Positions 2,220-63,127 of a stretch of 64,000 nucleotides of DNA are shown here, one piece after another. The stretch is taken from the IMG/VR virus record IMGVR_UViG_3300024239_000016, positions 62,001-126,000 of that record. One strand, 5' to 3'. Made by a program: the position numbers and the translations under genes. The notes beneath the pieces were generated by a model. The model searched no databases. It worked only from the letters and a program-made list of their open reading frames with translations, and was not told where the DNA came from. The DNA comes from a virus. The first letter of the stretch is position 1, and the number at the start of each line of letters is the position of its first letter.

Positions 2220-3237
2220 ACTGCTCGCTAGTATGAGCGGGTGAAGCTTCAATTAGGGCATTACCGAAAAATACGCTGGTAGTAGTGAAGAGATTCTTGT
2301 ATCGATGACAGATAGCTGTCGGTATTTCCGTGTCATGGCGGATAGATCAGCGAGTACTTTACACGGAACAGCGTAACCGAAAGGCGGTAAAACAACACCA
2401 TGAAAGCGGACATCCGCGCGCACATGTGTAGTACCGGTCATACAGACCGGAACGAGCTACTCTGACGCGATGGAAAAAATGGGCTGCCATAGTGGAGAAC
2501 TCTTAGTAGTGTTTAGGATAGCTGTGAGACAATGAAGCTCAGTCGCCAGGTTGAGTGGAGTCATCCTTGAAATAGCAGCCATAAACGGAGTTCAGTTGAA
2601 TGCAGTGTGATGAATCGTACGCCGCGTGGCCAGGCGATGAAATCACATTCCTCGGAAAGTCGGCGAATGTTTGATGTGTAAGGCCGTTGGGTCTCCGTGA
2701 GAGCGGAGACTGGAACAAGGTGAAACGGCGTTGAGTCGTCAGTGCTAAACTAACGAACAACGAGGCTGGGTCGAAAGATGCCGCTTACTGGATGTTCGAA
2801 TCGTCCCACAATACTAACGCCGAGCCAAGTCTGTGTGATCCGTAATGGGAAAATCGCCTCTGTAAAAAAGTCCAGTGTGCGAGGATGCTGTTGCGAACTA
2901 TCAGAAAGGTGTAGAGAGTAGACCCGAGGGACCTAAAACAATTTGTCGATAATAGCTATTGGATCACTTCATCGCGCGCCGCGGGGTGTTGGTCTAGTAA
3001 CAGGTAGCTTAGATGGGTTGTCATGGTAGAGGCGTATTCCAGACCACAAACAAAATCAGGGCTCCTAAAGAAAGAGTAACGCCTGTTTCTGGTAGTGAAA
3101 ACTATAGTGGTAGGCTTCCTAAGCCTGTATCTCCTGTTCTAGACATAGGGGATGGTTTCTTCAATAGAAGCAGTACCACGAGATAATATCGGTATTCTTA
3201 GATACTATCGTAAAACTCGTGCACAAAGAGTTCAGTA
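2220..3237 (+). ncRNA. Candidate large structured RNA 2, just upstream of tRNA-Ser
   Basis: About 1 kb without a credible ORF. Visible helices: 2274-2280/2346-2352; 2406-2409/2414-2417; 2434-2439/2445-2450 (6 bp, pentaloop) inside 2428-2431/2457-2460; 2606-2611/2642-2647; 2691-2697/2704-2710 (7 bp) nested in 2683-2688/2724-2729; 2790-2794/2802-2806 with a T-arm-like loop; 3112-3117/3121-3126; 3178-3182/3216-3220. 2990-2995/3041-3046 is crossed by the perfect 6-bp helix 3030-3035/3079-3084, a pseudoknot. The block abuts the tRNA-Ser acceptor stem. It may be more than one RNA. Boundaries are inferred from flanking genes; family membership (GOLLD/ROOL-like or new) is untested. Confidence 0.45.
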
Positions 3238-3325
3238 GGGGGTTTGGCAGAGCGGTCGATTGCACTGGTCTTGAAAACCAGCGATGGGAAACCATCCGTG
3301 AGTTCGAATCTCACAGCCCCCGCCA
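3238..3325 (+). tRNA. tRNA-Ser(UGA) with encoded CCA
   Basis: Class II tRNA. Acceptor 3238-3244 pairs with 3315-3321, discriminator is G3322, and CCA is encoded at 3323-3325. Anticodon stem 3265-3269/3277-3281 carries TGA at 3272-3274. A long variable arm (GATGG...CCATC type) and a T arm with loop TTCGAAT are present. It closely resembles bacterial serine tRNAs reading UCA. Confidence 0.95.
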
Positions 3326-3622: not shown

Positions 3623-3975
3623 GTCTGCACCCAAACTACACCAGGTCACGTGTAAACACTCACAAACAAATACCACTCGTGTGGTAGAGCGTTAGAAGCT
3701 AAAGCTATGGTAGCCGAAGATGATTGTGGATCGTACATCGAACATAATTCCTGATCAGAGTTACGATCGATAAGATGCGACCATTGAAGACTCAGAGCCA
3801 ACCAACGATTACGCTATAAAGAAGCAAAGGATTTATCCGAGCGCACTGTGTCGCATTAAAGGTGGATCCGACAGTTTCAATTGCAGACTGAGAAAGCTCT
3901 CAGTCTGCAATCCAGTTTGTATCTTACCGTGTACCAACTGGATTGCACGACTGTGTAAAAGTTAGATAGAGATAA
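3623..3975 (+). other. Non-coding stretch with competing long hairpins
   Basis: No ORF over 353 nt. Hairpin 3671-3676/3681-3686 (6 bp, TCGT loop). The main feature is a pair of overlapping stems: a perfect 14-bp hairpin (3880-3893/3898-3911) and a perfect 12-bp hairpin (3906-3917/3936-3947). Both use TGCAAT 3906-3911, which can pair with ATTGCA at 3880-3885 or with the identical ATTGCA at 3942-3947. This makes them partly exclusive and open to branch migration. No T tract follows, so simple termination is unlikely. The next gene starts 28 nt downstream. Confidence 0.55.
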
Positions 3976-4241: not shown

Positions 4242-4496
4242 TTGTCCAGATCACTGCGTGTGTATAAAACCAAAGTTAAGAAATTGGCTAGGTTAAAAAG
4301 GATTACTGCCAAGAGTTACGCTGCCATCGGTTTTGTAAAGGTAAACGTTCTGTTACAGACTCCTAAAATCTGTAGTTGTCATATGTGCGGCAATGCAAGA
4401 AAGCACTATAGGCGCCGCACGCTTAAAGAAGAGCGCGACCTTGTTGATTACAAGGAGCAGCTTAAGAGCCTTTCGTTGATCCCTTCCTACAGGTAG
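4242..4496 (+). CDS. Basic protein with CSCHMCGNAR motif (84 aa)
   Basis: TTG 4242 follows GGGAGAG (4230-4236); no better ATG exists. The protein is strongly basic. CSCHMCGNARKHYRRR near residue 46 is a motif I recall in short phage and bacterial proteins of unknown function (CSxxMCGNPR type) and probably binds zinc. A nucleic-acid-binding role is plausible given charge and context between two structured RNA blocks. Confidence 0.65.
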   Translation: MSRSLRVYKTKVKKLARLKRITAKSYAAIGFVKVNVLLQTPKICSCHMCGNARKHYRRRTLKEERDLVDYKEQLKSLSLIPSYR

Positions 4497-4499
4497 ACT

Positions 4500-4850
4500 A
4501 ACTTGGGTGATTGTAGGAGTAGCCCAAAAATAAGCCGTAACAAGCTGGGAAGAAAACCCAGTACCATTTTAGCGAATGGTGAGGAGTGTTACGGAGCCAT
4601 GATGAGTTATTTTAACCAACGACCAATCAGGATTCTCGAATCTAAATGCGACATATGGCCTTAGTGACATCATAGCGGCTGACCACTCGGCAATATATGG
4701 CTGGCCGGCCCGGTCCCTGGCGCGATCCGCGAGTGCTCGCGGATATCCGCCGCTGCCGACTTGTTGCAAATAGATGGATCCAGATGTAACTCAATATTGG
4801 TGTACCGCAGCACGCCCCTAGGGGCGTGCTGTAGTTAATTTATTTTTTAT
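4500..4850 (+). ncRNA. Candidate structured RNA 3 (about 330 nt) with own terminator
   Basis: No ORF. Hairpin 4503-4507/4523-4527. A three-way junction follows: closing helix 4535-4542/4587-4594 (8 bp, perfect) with arms 4545-4549/4557-4561 and 4563-4568/4575-4580. Directly abutting it, a 10-bp helix with one bulge (4595-4604 with 4668-4673 and 4677-4680). Then 4687-4692/4754-4759 encloses an 8-bp GC hairpin 4725-4732/4737-4744. The RNA ends at the hairpin terminator at 4808. Helices stack end to end with little unpaired sequence, unlike a plain intergenic region. No known family recognised. Confidence 0.55.
4808..4848 (+). terminator. Intrinsic terminator
   Basis: Perfect 11-bp GC-rich stem 4808-4818/4821-4831, followed by a T-rich tail (TTAATTTATTTTTT). 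Ends the structured RNA block before the GNAT gene. Confidence 0.85.
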
Positions 4851-6153: not shown

Positions 6154-6528
6154 ATGTCCAGAACCGTTCGTAGGAAGAACTTGGCTTATTTGTACAATCG
6201 TTATGTCGAAAACATCGATTGCATTTATGTTATCGGTAACGTTATTTACATTAAGCGCGACTGGCGGTTTGAGCTGTGTGAGGTCATGAAGCTCAATCGC
6301 ATCAACATGTCCGATCCGGATGCCTACGTCGCGTGCGAGCGCGCTCGCTTTCATTCGGACGCCAGGCGTATCAGCAGTCGCGAAAAGCCCAATAAATTTG
6401 GTCGCAAATACCTGCAACGCAGTTATCGTAACTATGTCAAAAATGCTATTCGCAATGCCGTTAAAACTGATCTGGAGAACTATCCTGTCATTCCGCGACG
6501 CTACATCTGCGCTGGCTACTTTGACTGA
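6154..6528 (+). CDS. Small basic protein of unknown function (124 aa)
   Basis: ATG 6154 follows GGGGAG at 6142-6147, ideal spacing. The product is rich in Arg and Tyr (MSRTVRRKNLAYLYNRY at the start) with no motif I know. The opposite-strand frame over the same bases is a shadow without a ribosome site. Confidence 0.65.
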   Translation: MSRTVRRKNLAYLYNRYVENIDCIYVIGNVIYIKRDWRFELCEVMKLNRINMSDPDAYVACERARFHSDARRISSREKPNKFGRKYLQRSYRNYVKNAIRNAVKTDLENYPVIPRRYICAGYFD

Positions 6529-6584
6529 CAGTAAAGGAAATGTGTTTAAGATTTTTTTGAACATATATTTCTATTATGAGTTCG

Positions 6585-7271
6585 GCCAAGTTTCATAGTC
6601 TGAATTCATTCCCGGTACTAACTTACCGTGAGATCGTAACGATCGGGTTGGAGTCGTATAATCGAGCACCTGTACCGCGCCGGGGAATCCTCTCGAGGAT
6701 ATACTCGCCGCATCGACATAATCGGCGCCTTGTAGTATTGGCCCCGACAGTCTGAGAAACACATCCGCGTAACTTCGGGTGGAGTTTACTTTACGTGGTT
6801 TTTTACTCGATGAATGCTTGTAGAATTGATGCGTTGTAAAGGACAAATCTTTTTAAACGATTACAAGCTCGACGGAGTCGGTTGCCCTACACTGACTCCG
6901 AGACAATAGATGCAGTAGGGATGGCTAGTTTCGCTAGGTCTGATTAAGGCGAGCGAAAGGTGGAGTGCAGATTTTTAGCAGATAGGTGTCGCGACCGACC
7001 CGTTAAATTTTTGCGCGTAGAAGCCCATAGTCAGCACCGCCGCCATCCGGGTGATGGCAAAAGTTAGATTGCAATTTTATCGAAAACACGCTCGTAGGCT
7101 GACATCACGTCGATCTGCTCTGCGTCGGTGTAAACAGCCGTGCAATCAGTTAGTAGCTCGCGATAGCTACCGTCTGGGTCGTGTGTGGAAACACGATCCT
7201 TTCGATAGTTCTTGCGTAAGGGGTACATCCCCTGTTTTACACACCTCCCTTCGGGGAGGTGTGTATTTTTT
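6585..7271 (+). ncRNA. Candidate large structured RNA 4 with H-type pseudoknot and own terminator
   Basis: 769 nt separate the neighbouring genes. Helices in order: 6613-6617/6624-6628; 6632-6636/6640-6644; closing helix 6681-6685/6742-6746 around hairpins 6687-6691/6696-6700 and 6706-6710/6723-6727. A textbook H-type pseudoknot follows: 6873-6879/6894-6900 (7 bp) crossed by 6885-6890/6915-6920 (6 bp). Then 6929-6935/6952-6958; 7042-7047/7053-7058; 7067-7073/7141-7147 (7 bp, long range); 7153-7158/7165-7170; 7176-7184/7191-7199 (one G-U); 7219-7223/7229-7233; terminator 7239-7264. AT-rich sequence at 6550-6585 could hold the promoter. No family recognised; found by eye. Confidence 0.55.
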
Positions 7272-7272
7272 T
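7239..7272 (+). terminator. Intrinsic terminator with UUCG tetraloop
   Basis: Perfect 11-bp stem 7239-7249/7254-7264 capped by TTCG, followed by ATTTTTTT. Marks the 3' end of the structured RNA block. Confidence 0.9.
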
Positions 7273-7297
7273 ATGCTGTTTAATTTAAGGAGACAAA

Positions 7298-7564
7298 ATG
7301 AGCAGCGACAATGTAGATGACGATTTAAATAGTCGTCGTATGGCTAAACAGTTACTAGCGATGGAATTAGCTAGTCATTTTCACCAGCAGGCCATACGAC
7401 TGCGTGCAAAATCCATGCATGCAAAAGCAATAGCGGATATGCCTGAAGGGGCAATTGATGCGGATGAGCTGTCCGAAGTTGTCCGTATGGCCGGTAACTA
7501 TGCTGCGTCCACTATAACTCTCGGTATGGATATCTACATTGATCCAACTGGTGAGTCATTGTGA
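7298..7564 (+). CDS. Unknown protein (88 aa)
   Basis: ATG 7298 after TAAGGAG. Helical, soluble, His- and Met-containing product. Its stop overlaps the GTG start of the following membrane protein, so the two are coupled. Not recognised. Confidence 0.7.
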   Translation: MSSDNVDDDLNSRRMAKQLLAMELASHFHQQAIRLRAKSMHAKAIADMPEGAIDADELSEVVRMAGNYAASTITLGMDIYIDPTGESL

Positions 7565-7680
7565 AAACGGTTTTCTTTATCCTGGTATCCGGAGCCGCAT
7601 GGCTCTGGATATTTTCAAAAATTGAACCTATGTGGTTAGCTGTCTTGCGAGCAGCCTACATAGGTTATTCTTTTATATAG
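7561..7680 (+). CDS. Tiny membrane protein (39 aa)
   Basis: GTG at 7561 overlaps the previous stop (GTGA). The product is almost wholly hydrophobic with two possible membrane segments (VFFILVSGAAWLWIF and WLAVLRAAYIGYSF). The frame ends in TAG 10 nt before the next start and carries that gene's GGAG. Too short for homology judgement; holin-like or regulatory roles are guesses. Confidence 0.5.
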   Translation: MKTVFFILVSGAAWLWIFSKIEPMWLAVLRAAYIGYSFI

Positions 7681-7690
7681 GAGTTTAGCT

Positions 7691-7924
7691 GTGCCTTATG
7701 GAATCGATCAGCTGCGTGTACCAACCACCAAGTCCGAGCGAGAGGACAAAAAGTACGACATGAACGACGTAATGCGAGCGGCGCGCCTCCGTATGGAAGG
7801 CAATGGCATTTGCATAAACGCCATCAGTCGCCGTCGCCTAAACAAAAATTCGCGATTTACCATGATTGAGTTGAATCAAATAGTTGACGAAGTTGTCGAC
7901 GATTCCAACTTCTACAACCAATGA
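7691..7924 (+). CDS. Unknown protein (77 aa)
   Basis: GTG 7691 with GGAG at 7680-7683. Polar, Arg-rich middle and acidic end. Followed 9 nt later by the next gene with its own GAGGAAA. Function unknown. Confidence 0.65.
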   Translation: MPYGIDQLRVPTTKSEREDKKYDMNDVMRAARLRMEGNGICINAISRRRLNKNSRFTMIELNQIVDEVVDDSNFYNQ

Positions 7925-7933
7925 GGAAATGCC

Positions 7934-8725
7934 ATGAAATTCAGCTACGCGCACTTTCCGAAGGGAACAGTGTTTGAGATCGGTGAGCTCGCTACCAGAT
8001 TAACGGATAGTCAGACGCAACACGAGGTGGAGAGTTTATATTCGGTTTATCCTGGCACATATGTGATCAATACAACCAGCTTTATTGAACGGGAATACCC
8101 GATCTACAATGACGATAACACACCGTCTGGCGAGACTCGAAAAGAGCGCACTCAGGTATGCCTGAATATCGATCACGTTACAAAAATAATCAAACGTGGT
8201 GCTGGCAGTGTTGTATTTGAGGCAGAACCTGAGCCTCTAGCCAAATGGTCTATTCCCGTCAGTAAGCCCTCGAGAAGCAGCTATATCGGCTATGAAAACG
8301 TTTGTCCTTTCAGTGATGTAATTCTATCATTAGTCGAGAAGCAGTTACATACCAAGCACGATTCCTGGGTTGATATGAATCGATTGACCTTGTATGTACT
8401 CGCTCATGGTGCGATCAGACGGAAGGCTAACGGCATAAATGATCCTTTTACGGGTGACCAAATGGCCATTCGCAAAAGGAAATTGAAAAGCATAATTCGC
8501 CGAAATCTTAATCGATTTTTAATCCCGATAAGAGAAGCTGAAGCCGAATATTTGCGAGAAAGAGATAACGACTATGCCCGTGATGATCTTTTCTGGTTTC
8601 AGCATGATGTAGTCGATGAAGTTGATCAGGACGACTCAGCTGATGATGGACTGTTCGGTCATGCTCTGGATGAAAGATTCGCTCTCTCTAGCGATGATCT
8701 CCATGAGGATGAACGTAAAATCTAA
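7934..8725 (+). CDS. Unknown protein with acidic C-terminus (263 aa)
   Basis: ATG 7934 after GAGGAAA. N-terminal half is beta-rich (KFSYAHFPKGTVFEIGELATRL), the middle is helical and basic, and the last 50 residues are very acidic (DEVDQDDSADDG). An acidic tail is common in phage DNA-mimic or scaffold proteins, but nothing else supports such a role. Last gene before a terminator. Confidence 0.75.
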   Translation: MKFSYAHFPKGTVFEIGELATRLTDSQTQHEVESLYSVYPGTYVINTTSFIEREYPIYNDDNTPSGETRKERTQVCLNIDHVTKIIKRGAGSVVFEAEPEPLAKWSIPVSKPSRSSYIGYENVCPFSDVILSLVEKQLHTKHDSWVDMNRLTLYVLAHGAIRRKANGINDPFTGDQMAIRKRKLKSIIRRNLNRFLIPIREAEAEYLRERDNDYARDDLFWFQHDVVDEVDQDDSADDGLFGHALDERFALSSDDLHEDERKI

Positions 8726-13233: not shown

Positions 13234-13242
13234 ACATATTAC
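13234..13242 (+). promoter_or_regulatory. Early-promoter-like element (ACATATTAC)
   Basis: Differs from TATATTAC at one base; lies after a terminator in an AT-rich stretch, about 60 nt upstream of the next start at 13302. TATATTAC is the motif I recall for phiKZ-type early promoters. Confidence 0.45.
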
Positions 13243-14612: not shown

Positions 14613-14702
14613 ATGTGCTTTAGCCATTTATATTTACATATAACAGCATTGATAAGCTTTAGCAACATCGCTAAAGAGATCATCCATGCCAAGGAGAAAA
14701 TC

Positions 14703-21970: not shown

Positions 21971-21978
21971 TATATTAC
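21971..21978 (+). promoter_or_regulatory. TATATTAC early-promoter-like element
   Basis: Exact TATATTAC 15 nt after the endolysin stop and about 355 nt before the next ORF. If used, it gives a transcript with a very long, structured 5' leader. Confidence 0.6.
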
Positions 21979-22332
21979 TGTAATGAGCATAGTCGTAAGT
22001 GTCCTACTCACTTCCTATGTTCCACTCCGTTCTGACTAGCGCAAGATGGTTAGAATGCGAGTCGTTTGTTTGGTGGTAGTCGATGCACCCGGAGCCTGCT
22101 TCTTAACCGCAGGTACTGGCTCTCTCGATGCGGACCCACTAAGCAAATTAACGCCGTCCAAATGCAACACCGGTGTAAGCGTTTGGATGTGCTGCTGAGA
22201 GCGCAGCTGTTAGCCCAACTGGGCTAACAGATGTCTTTTCATCAATCTCTTAATACAGGCGTTAAGAGACGTAGGGAGTTCTGGTGAGCAGCCTGATCGC
22301 CAAAATACTTTTCAATCAAGAGGAAACAACTC
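21979..22332 (+). ncRNA. Structured leader or small RNA upstream of the 159-aa gene
   Basis: No gene in 354 nt. Helices: 22156-22165/22179-22188 (10 bp with two G-U) with an inner ACACCGGTGT palindrome; CCTGC/GCAGG near 22095-22118 with a GAG/CTC extension; 22207-22216/22221-22230 (10 bp, then TCTTTTC, terminator-like); 22246-22253/22262-22269 (8 bp). The terminator-like stem ahead of the ORF suggests either a separate small RNA ending near 22240 or attenuation. The final AGAGGAAACAACTC before ATG 22333 is the ribosome site. Confidence 0.5.
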
Positions 22333-22812
22333 ATGACCACCGTTACCGCCGAAGTCGATGTCAAAGGTCACAAGGACTCGACACAACTGATCATCACCAA
22401 AATCAACGACCTCAAGGGCATCGTGCTGGAATCCACCGGCTCATCCGTGATCGCCGATGGCGTTTTCGAAAAGACCCTGCCCGAAGGCATGACCGCCGAT
22501 ACCGTCGCCAGCGTCCTGTCGCACATCAATGACTTCAATGCCGCCGCCGCCGATGTCGCCACTTCCCAGGCCGTCCCGTTCATCGTCTCGAATCCCGAAT
22601 TCACTGCCGAACTCTCCGTTCCCCTGGTCAAGGGCAGCGCAATCAATCTGCTGATCGAAGGTACCAAGGAAACCTCGGATGGCAAGGGCGGGCGTCAAAC
22701 CGTTCATGGCAGCGTTGCCAGCAAGCTGACCGTTCGTGGTTGGAAGGCCGGCGGCTTCGGTATCGTCAAGTCCCAGTTCCGTGCGGCTTGCACTGCCGGT
22801 CTGAACAAGTAA
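22333..22812 (+). CDS. Probably abundant unknown protein (159 aa)
   Basis: ATG 22333 with AGAGGAAA upstream. The codon use is strikingly GC-rich and C-ending (ACC GTT ACC GCC, GAC CTC AAG), shared only with the shell and SSB-like genes, which points to very high expression. The protein is Ala/Val/Thr-rich, beta/alpha, with no membrane segment. It lies behind an exact TATATTAC element with a structured leader, so is probably early. I do not recognise the family. Confidence 0.8.
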   Translation: MTTVTAEVDVKGHKDSTQLIITKINDLKGIVLESTGSSVIADGVFEKTLPEGMTADTVASVLSHINDFNAAAADVATSQAVPFIVSNPEFTAELSVPLVKGSAINLLIEGTKETSDGKGGRQTVHGSVASKLTVRGWKAGGFGIVKSQFRAACTAGLNK

Positions 22813-47589: not shown

Positions 47590-49485
47590 ATGATCAATCG
47601 CAACATCGGCGGCGCTGGTAACGACACCGCATCCGCACAACAAGAAATCCACGCTGGCGCCACCGATCCCGCCGGCTCCGGACAGACCACCGAAAAGAAG
47701 TTCTCCCTGTCCCGCCTGGGCTCCATCGGCAACATGCCCATGAGCCGCCGCAGTGGTTCCGAAGTCGCTGTCGAGCTGGCCAACGCCATGGATGACCTGG
47801 CCGAGAAGTACAAGCTGACGAGCAACATCAGCACCCTGATCGTCGAACCGAAAAACGCTGACGGCCTGTTCTACTCCGCCATCGCCGTGATTTTCGCAAT
47901 TCCCGAAAAGCGCATCTGTGCCTACCACCTGCTCATCGCCGCCGCCTCGAGCGAATCCAGCGGCGCGCCGCTAATCGAAAATGTTCCGAACTATGGCACC
48001 ATCGAAACTCGCATCACTCCGGGCTGTGGCGTCACGGTGCGTACGATCGAATCGATCAGCAACTACATCAAGGGCCGCATGAACATGACGGCAGTCTACG
48101 CAGCCTCGTGCGTTGTGCCGGCCACCTTCGATCCGAAGGACCAGTCCAGCGTCTACCGTCTGCTCGCCAATGCCGCCACCGCCGGCGCACACACGCTCAA
48201 CGTCCGCAGCGGTCAGCCCGACCTCAATCTGGCTGAAACCGTTTTCGATGAGCAACTTTCCGTTCGCATTTCTGGTATGGAAGATCACATTGTCGGTATC
48301 GACTCTTTGCCGATCCGGTCCGACATCTGTGTCGAAATTCTGTCACAGCCGATCGCCCGTCAGAACAGCCCGACCGACAACATCCTCAATCGCGCTGCCA
48401 ATGACGGCATCGGTTCCAAGGTCCTGACCCAGCTGATCGGCTATGTTGATTTCCTGAGCGCGCCGCCCGACAACCTGCAAGGTGGCCAAGCCTTTGGTCT
48501 GAACAAACCGACCCAAGCTCTGCGTCCGCGCATCATGATCACCGACTTCCAGGCCGTGGACTCCATCACCCAATCCATGCAGCTGCTCGCTCTGATCAGC
48601 GCCAAGAAGCTGACCGAAGGTTACGGTTGGTCTGGTGCTTTCAGCGCTCCGCGCCGCGTCTTGGCCAAGGGCGAAATCGATTATCGCAACATCGGCGCAA
48701 TCGGCTACATGCTCGAAACTCTGCCTGGCAATGTACCTGGTCATGTCATGGTGGAAACGTCGCCGGACAAGTTCAACGCCCAAGTTCTTCGCGTTCTCCT
48801 GAACCACGGCGTCTATCCGGATCCGGTGGTTACCATGTTGATCGATGAAGCCGGTCCCCAGACCTGGATCAATTCGATCTTCCTGGCAGCTGCTCGTGGC
48901 GTTCCCAATGCTGTCAAGGCACTGCTCGCTGCTTGCAACCTGCTGACTGGCGGCAACTTCAACAAGTACTACGACCCGCAGAAGCCGCTGGTCACTGCCG
49001 AAGAAAACCGCATCCATGCTGGTACCTGGCGCGATGGCCAGGATCGTTTGCGCGATCTCCTGGAATTCGACATGCTGGCCGCCATGAACTTCTATGGCAA
49101 TGCGGGCGACATGGACGCTGTCCATACCTTCTCCGACAGCTATGTTGACATGGCACTCCCGCTCAAGGTCCGCCTGGATCGTCGCTGGAACCTGATCAAG
49201 AATGCTCTCGGTCCGTCGGTCCGTCACACCGGTTACAAGCGTCCGGTCAATCTGTCTCCGAATCTCCTGGTTTCTCTGGTCCGTGGCGCCGCCGATTGCG
49301 GGCTCTCCATGAACCCGATCTACAACCTGGGCGAAACGATGGGCAGCCTGCAGCGTGCAAGTCTCAACGTGACTGGCCTGACCTTCGGCAGCGACATCTC
49401 CGCCCTGTTCAGCGGCAGCAACACCTCCGGTAGCGGTGCCAACCTGGGCAACCTGGGCATGGGCAATTTCAACGTCGGTTGGTAA
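47590..49485 (+). CDS. Phage-nucleus shell protein candidate (chimallin/ChmA-like, 631 aa)
   Basis: Proposed to self-assemble into the proteinaceous shell that encloses replicating phage DNA. Support: 631 aa, the length I recall for 201phi2-1 gp105; the next gene encodes RNA polymerase beta', as phiKZ gp55 follows shell gp54; and codon use is the most GC-rich, C-ending in the window, as expected for a very abundant protein. The N-terminus (about 50 residues) is polar and flexible, the centre alpha/beta, and the last 40 residues are Gly/Asn/Ser-rich (SGSNTSGSGANLGNLGMG), fitting the extended terminal arms used in the shell lattice. No direct sequence comparison was possible. Confidence 0.72.
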   Translation: MINRNIGGAGNDTASAQQEIHAGATDPAGSGQTTEKKFSLSRLGSIGNMPMSRRSGSEVAVELANAMDDLAEKYKLTSNISTLIVEPKNADGLFYSAIAVIFAIPEKRICAYHLLIAAASSESSGAPLIENVPNYGTIETRITPGCGVTVRTIESISNYIKGRMNMTAVYAASCVVPATFDPKDQSSVYRLLANAATAGAHTLNVRSGQPDLNLAETVFDEQLSVRISGMEDHIVGIDSLPIRSDICVEILSQPIARQNSPTDNILNRAANDGIGSKVLTQLIGYVDFLSAPPDNLQGGQAFGLNKPTQALRPRIMITDFQAVDSITQSMQLLALISAKKLTEGYGWSGAFSAPRRVLAKGEIDYRNIGAIGYMLETLPGNVPGHVMVETSPDKFNAQVLRVLLNHGVYPDPVVTMLIDEAGPQTWINSIFLAAARGVPNAVKALLAACNLLTGGNFNKYYDPQKPLVTAEENRIHAGTWRDGQDRLRDLLEFDMLAAMNFYGNAGDMDAVHTFSDSYVDMALPLKVRLDRRWNLIKNALGPSVRHTGYKRPVNLSPNLLVSLVRGAADCGLSMNPIYNLGETMGSLQRASLNVTGLTFGSDISALFSGSNTSGSGANLGNLGMGNFNVGW

Positions 49486-60979: not shown

Positions 60980-63127
60980 ATGGATCAACAAAACGAATTG
61001 GATCCGAGATTGCTCGGATTAATGGCTATTAACTTTGCTCCGGGCACAATTACCAGCGCTCGGCAGCAGATGGTTGGTAGTCAAATCGCTCAAGTTATTG
61101 ATTGCGATGGGGTAACTGAAAAAGCTATTTTCACCGGCATTGAGTTTGAGTTGGGTAAAACCACATTCAACATTCAAGCACCATGTGATATGGAGATCTT
61201 AAAGGTTTTTGATCTCTATCGACGCTCAATGGGACATGATGCAATTGAGCTGAATCCGTTAAAAGTCGTGATGTACCGTGACCTCAACACAGGCAAAGTA
61301 GGTTGTCTGGAGCTAATGGAATACGCGTCGTATCATCAGACTTTTGGATTCAAGTACAGGTTCACAAAATTCGCTGAGAGAATTAAAGAAAAGGCTGTCT
61401 TTGAAAAAGGTACAGTTTTTGCAGATTCTCCAGCGGTGACTGAAGATGGTTTCTTCTGCTATGGTGCAGAACTTGAGACCGTATATCTGGGTACCCATAG
61501 CTCGGGCGAAGATGGACTGACTTTCTCACGTAGTGCGCTCGAGAGCATGACGTATCGGACGTACATCAAGCGTACCATTCAGTGGGGTAAGTCAACCTAT
61601 CCCATCAATAAGTACGGAACTCTTGACGTAATGAAAGCGTTTCCTGATATTGGCGAGTATGTTGACGAATCTGGCATTCTGATGGTTCTTCGCGACCACT
61701 CGCCTGAGCTGGATATCGTTGGTCTGAATAAATACGATCTGATGGAAGTGGATTACTTCTACGACAATATCGTCTATGCGGCTGGACCTGGCGGAAGAGT
61801 GATCGACATCCGTGTTTGGTACGACGATCGATCTCAACATAACGCTACTCCACGCGGCATGGAAGAGCAAGCGATGAAGTATCTGAAAGCTAAACGCGAA
61901 TTTAACCGCGACATGCTTTCAAAGTATCACGAGATGAAGGCAAGAAACAATGGCGTTGACCCAGAGTTAACTCCGCGTATGCATCAGCTAATGATTGATG
62001 CGCTGAGAGAAATCGAACCTGGTCCAAACGCAGTCGAGAATACCGATGCAACCGATAAGGTTGATGTATGGCGACTTGAGTTCACTATCGAGTACGTCAA
62101 CACTCCGAGCATTCGTAGCAAGTTCACCAATACTGCAGGTGGTAAAGGTGTGGCAGTTAAAGTGGTTGAAGATGAAGATATGCCCGTCGATGATTTTGGT
62201 AATCGTGCGCAAGTGATTGCATCTGTCGAGTCGACCATCAACCGCAATAATACTCAGCAGTGGTATGAGCAGGCAATTAACGCATATGGTCGAGGATTGA
62301 TCCACCACATGCGGAGATTACTCGATCTGCCAATTCACGAAACACCCGCTGGAATTGAGATTATTCTCGGTCGTCAGTCTGAGGAAAAAATCCAACAACT
62401 CCTCGATTTGCTTGAGCGGCATTACAAGATCATTTCCAGACGCATGCATGAGCAGTTTGTCAGTATGTCAAGACAGATAAAACTCGCTCGACTCAGCTCT
62501 ATTCTTACCAGCAAACTCATTCCTTTGCTAAAGCCATCTAACGACGAAGAAGAACTCACCACGATTGTTCTGACTCTGCGTGAGGTATATAGGGCTGAAG
62601 GTATCGAAGAACGCTCGTGTGTCACCTATAAGACATACGCTGGTGTGCATGAGCGTACAGTTACCCCTGCGCTAATTGGATCCGAGTACTGGATGCAACT
62701 GGAAAAGACAGGCGATTCGTGGGCGGCGGTAGCTAGTCCTGATTTCCAACATCACGGAGTGCCTGCGACAATCAGTAAGCTGAATCGTTACAGTCACCCA
62801 CATCGTAATCAACCAACTCGCGCTATTGGCGAAGCTGAAGGTCAGCTAATTTCAGCACATGCTCATCCGCTAGCTCTTGCTGAGTGGATTGACCGCAACA
62901 ACTCACCGGAGTCTCATCGGGCGCTCGTAAGATCGATCTACGCTACCAAAACACCTTCCAACATTCCTATGGCTGTTGATCGTAAAAAGATCCCATTAGG
63001 TGGTCCCAAGCCTATGCGGTTGGTTAAACACCTTATGGAGTGTGCTGGTATGCGGTTCGTCTACAAAGTAAGTGAACGCACCAAAGCCTACTATCGATTG
63101 ATTGCAAAGCAGAAAGAATCGGAATGA
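60980..63127 (+). CDS. Non-virion RNA polymerase beta subunit, C-terminal part (phiKZ gp71-73-like)
   Basis: 715 aa. The clearest hallmark is GGKGVAVKVVEDEDMPVDD at about residues 386-404, matching the beta KGV...P.EDMP segment, followed by INRNNTQQWYEQ in place of the RMNIGQ-type stretch. Near the end, NQPTRAIGEAEGQLI at about 612-626 matches the QP..G..RfGEMEvw segment of beta. The N-terminal beta lobes are expected on another gene (gp123-like). ATG 60980 follows AGGAGTCG. The stop overlaps the next ATG by 4 nt. Confidence 0.88.
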   Translation: MDQQNELDPRLLGLMAINFAPGTITSARQQMVGSQIAQVIDCDGVTEKAIFTGIEFELGKTTFNIQAPCDMEILKVFDLYRRSMGHDAIELNPLKVVMYRDLNTGKVGCLELMEYASYHQTFGFKYRFTKFAERIKEKAVFEKGTVFADSPAVTEDGFFCYGAELETVYLGTHSSGEDGLTFSRSALESMTYRTYIKRTIQWGKSTYPINKYGTLDVMKAFPDIGEYVDESGILMVLRDHSPELDIVGLNKYDLMEVDYFYDNIVYAAGPGGRVIDIRVWYDDRSQHNATPRGMEEQAMKYLKAKREFNRDMLSKYHEMKARNNGVDPELTPRMHQLMIDALREIEPGPNAVENTDATDKVDVWRLEFTIEYVNTPSIRSKFTNTAGGKGVAVKVVEDEDMPVDDFGNRAQVIASVESTINRNNTQQWYEQAINAYGRGLIHHMRRLLDLPIHETPAGIEIILGRQSEEKIQQLLDLLERHYKIISRRMHEQFVSMSRQIKLARLSSILTSKLIPLLKPSNDEEELTTIVLTLREVYRAEGIEERSCVTYKTYAGVHERTVTPALIGSEYWMQLEKTGDSWAAVASPDFQHHGVPATISKLNRYSHPHRNQPTRAIGEAEGQLISAHAHPLALAEWIDRNNSPESHRALVRSIYATKTPSNIPMAVDRKKIPLGGPKPMRLVKHLMECAGMRFVYKVSERTKAYYRLIAKQKESE

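Follow-up and report, generated by a model that had tools for sequence, protein, structure and literature searches.

Noncoding RNAs have been described in phiKZ, where Grad-seq identified two species derived from untranslated regions, the p40 5′-UTR RNA of about 180 nt and the PHIKZ298 3′-UTR RNA of about 100 nt. The former lies close to its promoter and could result from premature termination ahead of the gene (PMC8545117). Outside this family, the closest described RNAs are ROOL and GOLLD, the latter reported to rise during lysis (PMC12286853). The early promoters of 201phi2-1, OBP, N1M2 and phiKZ have been tabulated, with a family consensus consisting of a TATATTAC-like box, a T-rich upstream element and a TG near the transcription start (PMC7058600).

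The locus analyzed here lies in a 64-kb stretch of DNA (hereafter, the window), corresponding to positions 62001–126000 of a 194,227-base IMG/VR record. Between a promoter and a terminator, it is predicted to encode a noncoding RNA of ~694 nt at 6578 to about 7271 on the plus strand, within which no convincing coding sequence (CDS) was found; this region is referred to below as the block. Like the phiKZ UTR RNAs, it belongs to the same phage family, is noncoding and ends in a terminator-like hairpin (PMC8545117), whereas it is about four times longer, carries a strong terminator and is known from its sequence only. The p40 and PHIKZ298 RNAs are the closest functional precedents. With ROOL and GOLLD the block shares its nature as a phage-encoded noncoding RNA of 600–900 nt near tRNA genes and the presence of a pseudoknot (PMC12286853); in contrast to them, it has its own early promoter, contains no tRNA in the unit and no demonstrable ornate fold, and is matched by neither the ROOL nor the GOLLD covariance model of Rfam, at gathering score or at E up to 5. 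An RNA found at the 3′ end of the tRNA array in Burkholderia phage FLC9 and its relatives is likewise noncoding, about 490 nt long, closed by a UUCG hairpin and from the same phage family; however, its sequence is unrelated to the block, it directly follows a tRNA, and no early promoter was seen ahead of it. Finally, promoter consensus, strand and terminator style are those of the early transcription units of the phiKZ family, which the virion RNA polymerase expresses early and in which, unlike here, a protein gene normally starts within 20–160 nt. No membership in a named family was found, and we class the block among the long noncoding RNAs of phages.

We propose, at a probability of roughly one in two, that the block is a noncoding RNA gene in its own right, belonging to a phiKZ-like phage, expressed early and dedicated to a product that would act in trans. 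It is mostly the early promoter, absent from the earlier sequence-only reading of this DNA, that argues for a free-standing noncoding unit.

Phage and Genomic Context

The window encodes a nuclear-shell protein (47590–49485) and a multisubunit RNA polymerase beta subunit (60980–63127), both matching PHROGs families of jumbo phages, as do a DNA polymerase and a tail sheath. Among named phages FLC9 comes nearest, with 41% amino-acid identity in one virion protein, and the best IMG/VR relative reaches 44%; the corresponding profile yielded 63 loci of the phage group. Its genes mark it as a nucleus-forming jumbo phage of the phiKZ-like type, and with identities no higher than these it is placed on a lone branch. 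Searches with the virion protein or with the 88-aa protein encoded next to the block revealed no close relatives, and no relative of the phage was found in a bacterial genome collection. Upstream of the block, a small gene of 124 aa (6154–6528, plus strand) has a positive codon score, no PHROGs family and no assigned function. The nearest phage tRNA is 3.2 kb away, and the block lies behind an array of tRNAs and noncoding RNAs.

An Early-Type Promoter Directly Upstream of the Block

A motif consisting of a T-rich element, [C/T]ATATTAC, five bases and TG was first met through the AT-rich islands of the window. In the 194-kb record it occurs about 25 times, always on the plus strand and usually 20–60 nt ahead of a gene; examples located with a weight matrix lie at window positions 13235, 16192, 21971, 37911, 47463, 55432 and 60942 (plus strand). 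The same form is found directly upstream of the block as TATATTTC-N5-TG (6564–6578), where an early-type phage promoter spans 6542–6578 on the plus strand: a T-rich element, TATATTTC at 6564–6571, a 5-base spacer and TG at 6577–6578. The box is one mismatch away from the TATATTAC-like early box, and the motif agrees with the tabulated promoters of 201phi2-1, OBP, N1M2 and phiKZ (PMC7058600). The same promoter form is also present in relatives of the phage. Transcription is predicted to start at G6578.

The genome-specific weight matrix was trained on 16 strict matches, all of which lie on the plus strand of the genome; the site at 6564–6578 was not among them because its box reads TATATTTC. 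It nevertheless scores 29.1 bits over 6542–6583, ranking 18th of the 30 sites above 8 bits, compared with a best score of 14.4 bits in a locally shuffled genome.

The 25 plus-strand sites scoring above 11 bits were surveyed. A likely gene begins within about 160 nt at 21 of them, the four exceptions being the block, L003:2188, 14637 and 21971. The block promoter is followed by 720 nt without a convincing gene and with a strong terminator inside. The site at L003:2188 was considered as a second long leader and rejected, as a 168-aa ORF (L003:2225–2731), albeit with odd codon use, begins 23 nt downstream. From the promoter at 14637 it is 458 nt to the next likely gene. The promoter at 21971 (38.9 bits) precedes about 350 nt of apparently noncoding sequence (21985–22332, plus strand), with a 10-bp hairpin at 22207–22230, before the CDS at 22333; this stretch is a further candidate for a long leader or a noncoding RNA. 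The block promoter is thus the sole early promoter of the record (n = 25) with a strong terminator preceding the first CDS.

Terminator, Downstream Gene and Coding Content

A terminator scan located an intrinsic terminator at 7238–7272 (plus strand), with a hairpin at 7238–7265 comprising a 12-bp stem and a UUCG loop, followed by seven T. The block's own strong terminator, noted in the sequence-only reading, was thus recovered, and so was the 3′ end; the 5′ end moves seven bases upstream, from 6585 to about 6578. The terminator ends 33 nt ahead of a small gene of 88 aa (7298–7564, plus strand), which has a positive codon score, no assigned function and no significant homologue. A separate promoter for this gene could not be demonstrated. 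A TATG late promoter was considered and rejected: TATG is not enriched upstream of genes in this phage, so that its occurrence at 7272–7275 is uninformative. With the terminator 33 nt before the gene and no separate promoter shown, the position fits an RNA gene and a leader alike.

The main alternative is that the block is a long 5′ leader whose terminator works conditionally, as an attenuator, and so controls 7298–7564 and the genes behind it. The early polymerase would begin at 6578 and mostly stop at 7265, a signal read by the leader would permit read-through, and the short RNA would be a by-product. The short distance between terminator and gene speaks for this, as do the block promoter being the only one of its class ahead of 7298–8725, the phiKZ precedent of the p40 5′-UTR RNA (PMC8545117) and a possible 7-bp pairing of 7128–7134 with 7236–7242 that would compete with the terminator. 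This candidate antiterminator, however, belongs to a chance-level number of such helices, the block containing 12 perfect helices of at least 7 bp against 10.3 in shuffled sequences. Furthermore, 720 nt far exceeds the other leaders of this phage as well as the phiKZ p40 RNA of about 180 nt. No known leader or riboswitch family was matched in Rfam, the best candidate being a sub-threshold PhotoRC-I match on the terminator hairpin (13.9 bits versus a gathering score of 45). We regard the leader as an unlikely, if serious, explanation.

We also weighed whether the promoter serves protein synthesis after all, through an early gene that is decayed or highly atypical or through one or several tiny ORFs. 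Most other early promoters lead to CDSs, and the apparent noncoding leader at L003:2188 proved to hold an ORF; in the block itself, a minus-strand ORF of 54 aa (7064–7228) has a protein-like composition. Against this, codon scores are negative across 6510–7049, i.e., over most of the block, and near zero over 7050–7229. The longest plus-strand ORF lying wholly within the predicted RNA, before the terminator, encodes about 35 aa, and an 89-aa ORF at 7051–7320 reads through the terminator. None of the ORFs tested, including the minus-strand one, has a significant protein homologue, and a coding function appears improbable.

A tRNA search found none in the block, in agreement with the sequence-only reading. 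That reading had also taken the block for a gene dedicated to a noncoding RNA, about 680 nt in length. The promoter, the terminator and the lack of a convincing gene between them lend this strong independent support, and the proposal as a whole is partly supported.

Structure of the Predicted RNA

All four helices proposed in the sequence-only reading are exact complements at the positions given, and their significance differs. The H-type pseudoknot at 6873–6920 (plus strand) turned out better than claimed, as a classical arrangement of 10 + 6 bp: stem S1 (6873–6882/6891–6900) has 10 bp including one G-U and coincides with the local minimum-energy hairpin, stem S2 (6885–6890/6915–6920) has 6 bp, and the loops measure 2, 0 and 14 nt. 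Under loose rules (stems of 7 and 6 Watson–Crick pairs within 60 nt), a pseudoknot appears in 25 of 400 shuffles and nine times in the 64-kb window. Under strict limits, which were chosen after the pseudoknot had been seen (S1 at least 9 bp, S2 6 bp, L1 1–5, L2 0–1, L3 2–20), the block pseudoknot is unique on either strand of the window and is reached by 23 of 5000 shuffles.

A multibranch domain closed by 6681–6685/6742–6746 was not borne out, its closing stem being no better than chance. Compared with shuffles, 6585–6730 folds at z +0.58 and 6670–6760 at z −0.60, and in the fold of the latter 6681–6685 pairs locally rather than with 6742–6746. The long-range 7-bp helix 7067–7073/7141–7147 is present in the local minimum-energy fold of 7060–7150, where it closes a hairpin domain (7067–7147, plus strand), but as a helix it is no better than chance. 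The fold has a z of −1.77, with 10 of 200 shuffles equally good, and the modeled domain is at most suggestive.

Including the terminator, the block folds at z −3.9; without it, the value is −1.93, while 24 windows of equal size from other parts of the 64 kb average −2.39. Folding energy was therefore rejected as proof of structure, as the block minus its terminator does not outdo coding DNA in folding. The plus strand folds better than the minus strand (z −1.9 versus −0.35). Four of the five 200-nt windows before the terminator region give z −0.27 to −1.66 and the remaining one (6760–6959) −2.73, against a background of −1.09 ± 1.37. The segment 7148–7233 reaches z −4.16, with none of 200 shuffles as good, and folds into a long compound hairpin (7159–7216, plus strand) with a 9-bp apical stem (7176–7184/7191–7199) and a short hairpin ahead of the terminator (7219–7233, plus strand). 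In these models strong folding is restricted to 7148–7265; with the 3′ end and the pseudoknot set aside, the fold does not rise above the coding background.

The sequence-only reading had proposed a check for multimers as in ROOL and GOLLD. A ROOL- or GOLLD-like ornate RNA forming a multimeric cage is suggested by the similar length, the H-type pseudoknot and the position behind the tRNA and noncoding-RNA array, yet it is highly improbable: no ornate RNA family of Rfam matches at E up to 5, most of the structure proposed is at chance level with the 5′ two thirds folding no better than background, no homologue was found against which to check the stems, and the block is preceded by a promoter of the early class, in contrast to the reported rise of GOLLD during lysis (PMC12286853).

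Homologue Searches

No Rfam family matched the block at gathering score, and nothing relevant appeared at E up to 5. Using blastn, comparison with named phages returned terminator matches and chance hits only. Similarly, 49 records, most of them from the phage's own group (46 from IMG/VR plus FLC9, PA7 and LucasX), yielded UUCG terminators and short chance-level matches, and 14 records carrying the 23S-like element described below gave terminator or chance matches. An nhmmer search of the genomes fetched for relatives and of the loci with the 23S-like element did not outperform a shuffled query. In IMG/VR, where very near records may be omitted, two scans for exact motifs returned zero matches. 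Within the reach of these searches, which may omit very near records, the block appears to be an orphan. The block shares no sequence with the window's other noncoding blocks, and kinship with them was rejected, as was kinship with the FLC9-type RNA, whose profile found no match in the block when run against the phage's own genome. Searching the rest of the phage record for a long complementary target revealed only short chance-level matches, which makes an antisense role within the phage unlikely.

Other Noncoding Elements in the Window and in Relatives

An isolated 72-nt copy of the L1-stalk region of 23S rRNA, with no other rRNA around it, was found at window positions 2510–2581 (plus strand), matching positions 2135–2206 of the RF02541 model (50.4 bits, E 6.5e-13). 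We judge this element more striking than the block itself. It sits in a noncoding stretch ending in a tRNA-Ser (3238–3325). A pattern built on it retrieved 16 IMG/VR contigs, one of which (L111) is real 23S rRNA while another (L098) looks like a chance match; most of the remainder look like phage, several with long tRNA arrays. In those contigs the conserved loops are kept and the stems vary in a compensatory way. The element has the look of a mimic of the ribosomal L1 stalk that recurs among phages. It is absent from the 46 IMG/VR records of the phage group and from FLC9, PA7 and LucasX. In the block, 12 nt at 6768–6779 (CGTAACTTCGGG) are identical to part of a bacterial 23S rRNA in the sense orientation; notable beside the element at 2510–2581, this match was rejected as meaningful, being about at chance level (0.1–0.2 such matches expected).

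Further noncoding blocks of the same array lie at 301–961, 3625–3975 and 4496–4850, one ending in tRNA-Pro and one in a strong terminator (4807–4832). Two of these regions fold better than the block at 6578–7271 when compared with shuffles (301–884, z −5.4; 3625–3975, z −3.95).

In FLC9, a conserved noncoding RNA (LC667451.1, 127639–128138, minus strand) follows the last tRNA of the array. It is shared with three IMG/VR phages, G008, G012 and G019 (loci L200, L203, L204 and L205), at 69% identity between FLC9 and the IMG/VR phages, and no Rfam family covers it.

Proposed Role of the RNA

It is probable that a discrete RNA of about the extent 6578–7271 is made. In the proposed sequence of events, strong sequence evidence places the start near G6578, where the early promoter (6564–6578) would initiate the RNA. 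The case is also strong that the UUCG terminator (7238–7265) would end it near 7271, giving the ~694 nt without a convincing gene. With moderate support, the 3′ hairpins (7159–7233) and the terminator may cap and stabilize the RNA, and the pseudoknot (6873–6920) may form. We infer that an RNA made early could then act in trans, as a folded platform or decoy for a host or phage protein; early expression, action in trans and the protein partner would all be parts of this model.

In the literature consulted we found no dedicated early RNA of this kind, the reported phiKZ noncoding RNAs being short UTR fragments. It is possible, though doubtful, that the block represents a new class of long free-standing early RNAs that would act in trans on proteins of the host or the phage, ahead of nucleus formation or while it proceeds.

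As a practical rule for these phages, RNA genes may be better flagged by a strong early promoter that lacks a gene downstream and is soon followed by a terminator than by folding energy, which fails on this block. Nucleus-forming phages keep their DNA apart from translation and rely on what happens within the first minutes of infection. If our reading of the block as a dedicated RNA gene is true, an early gene with an RNA product would be a concrete component of these first minutes, testable by knock-down.
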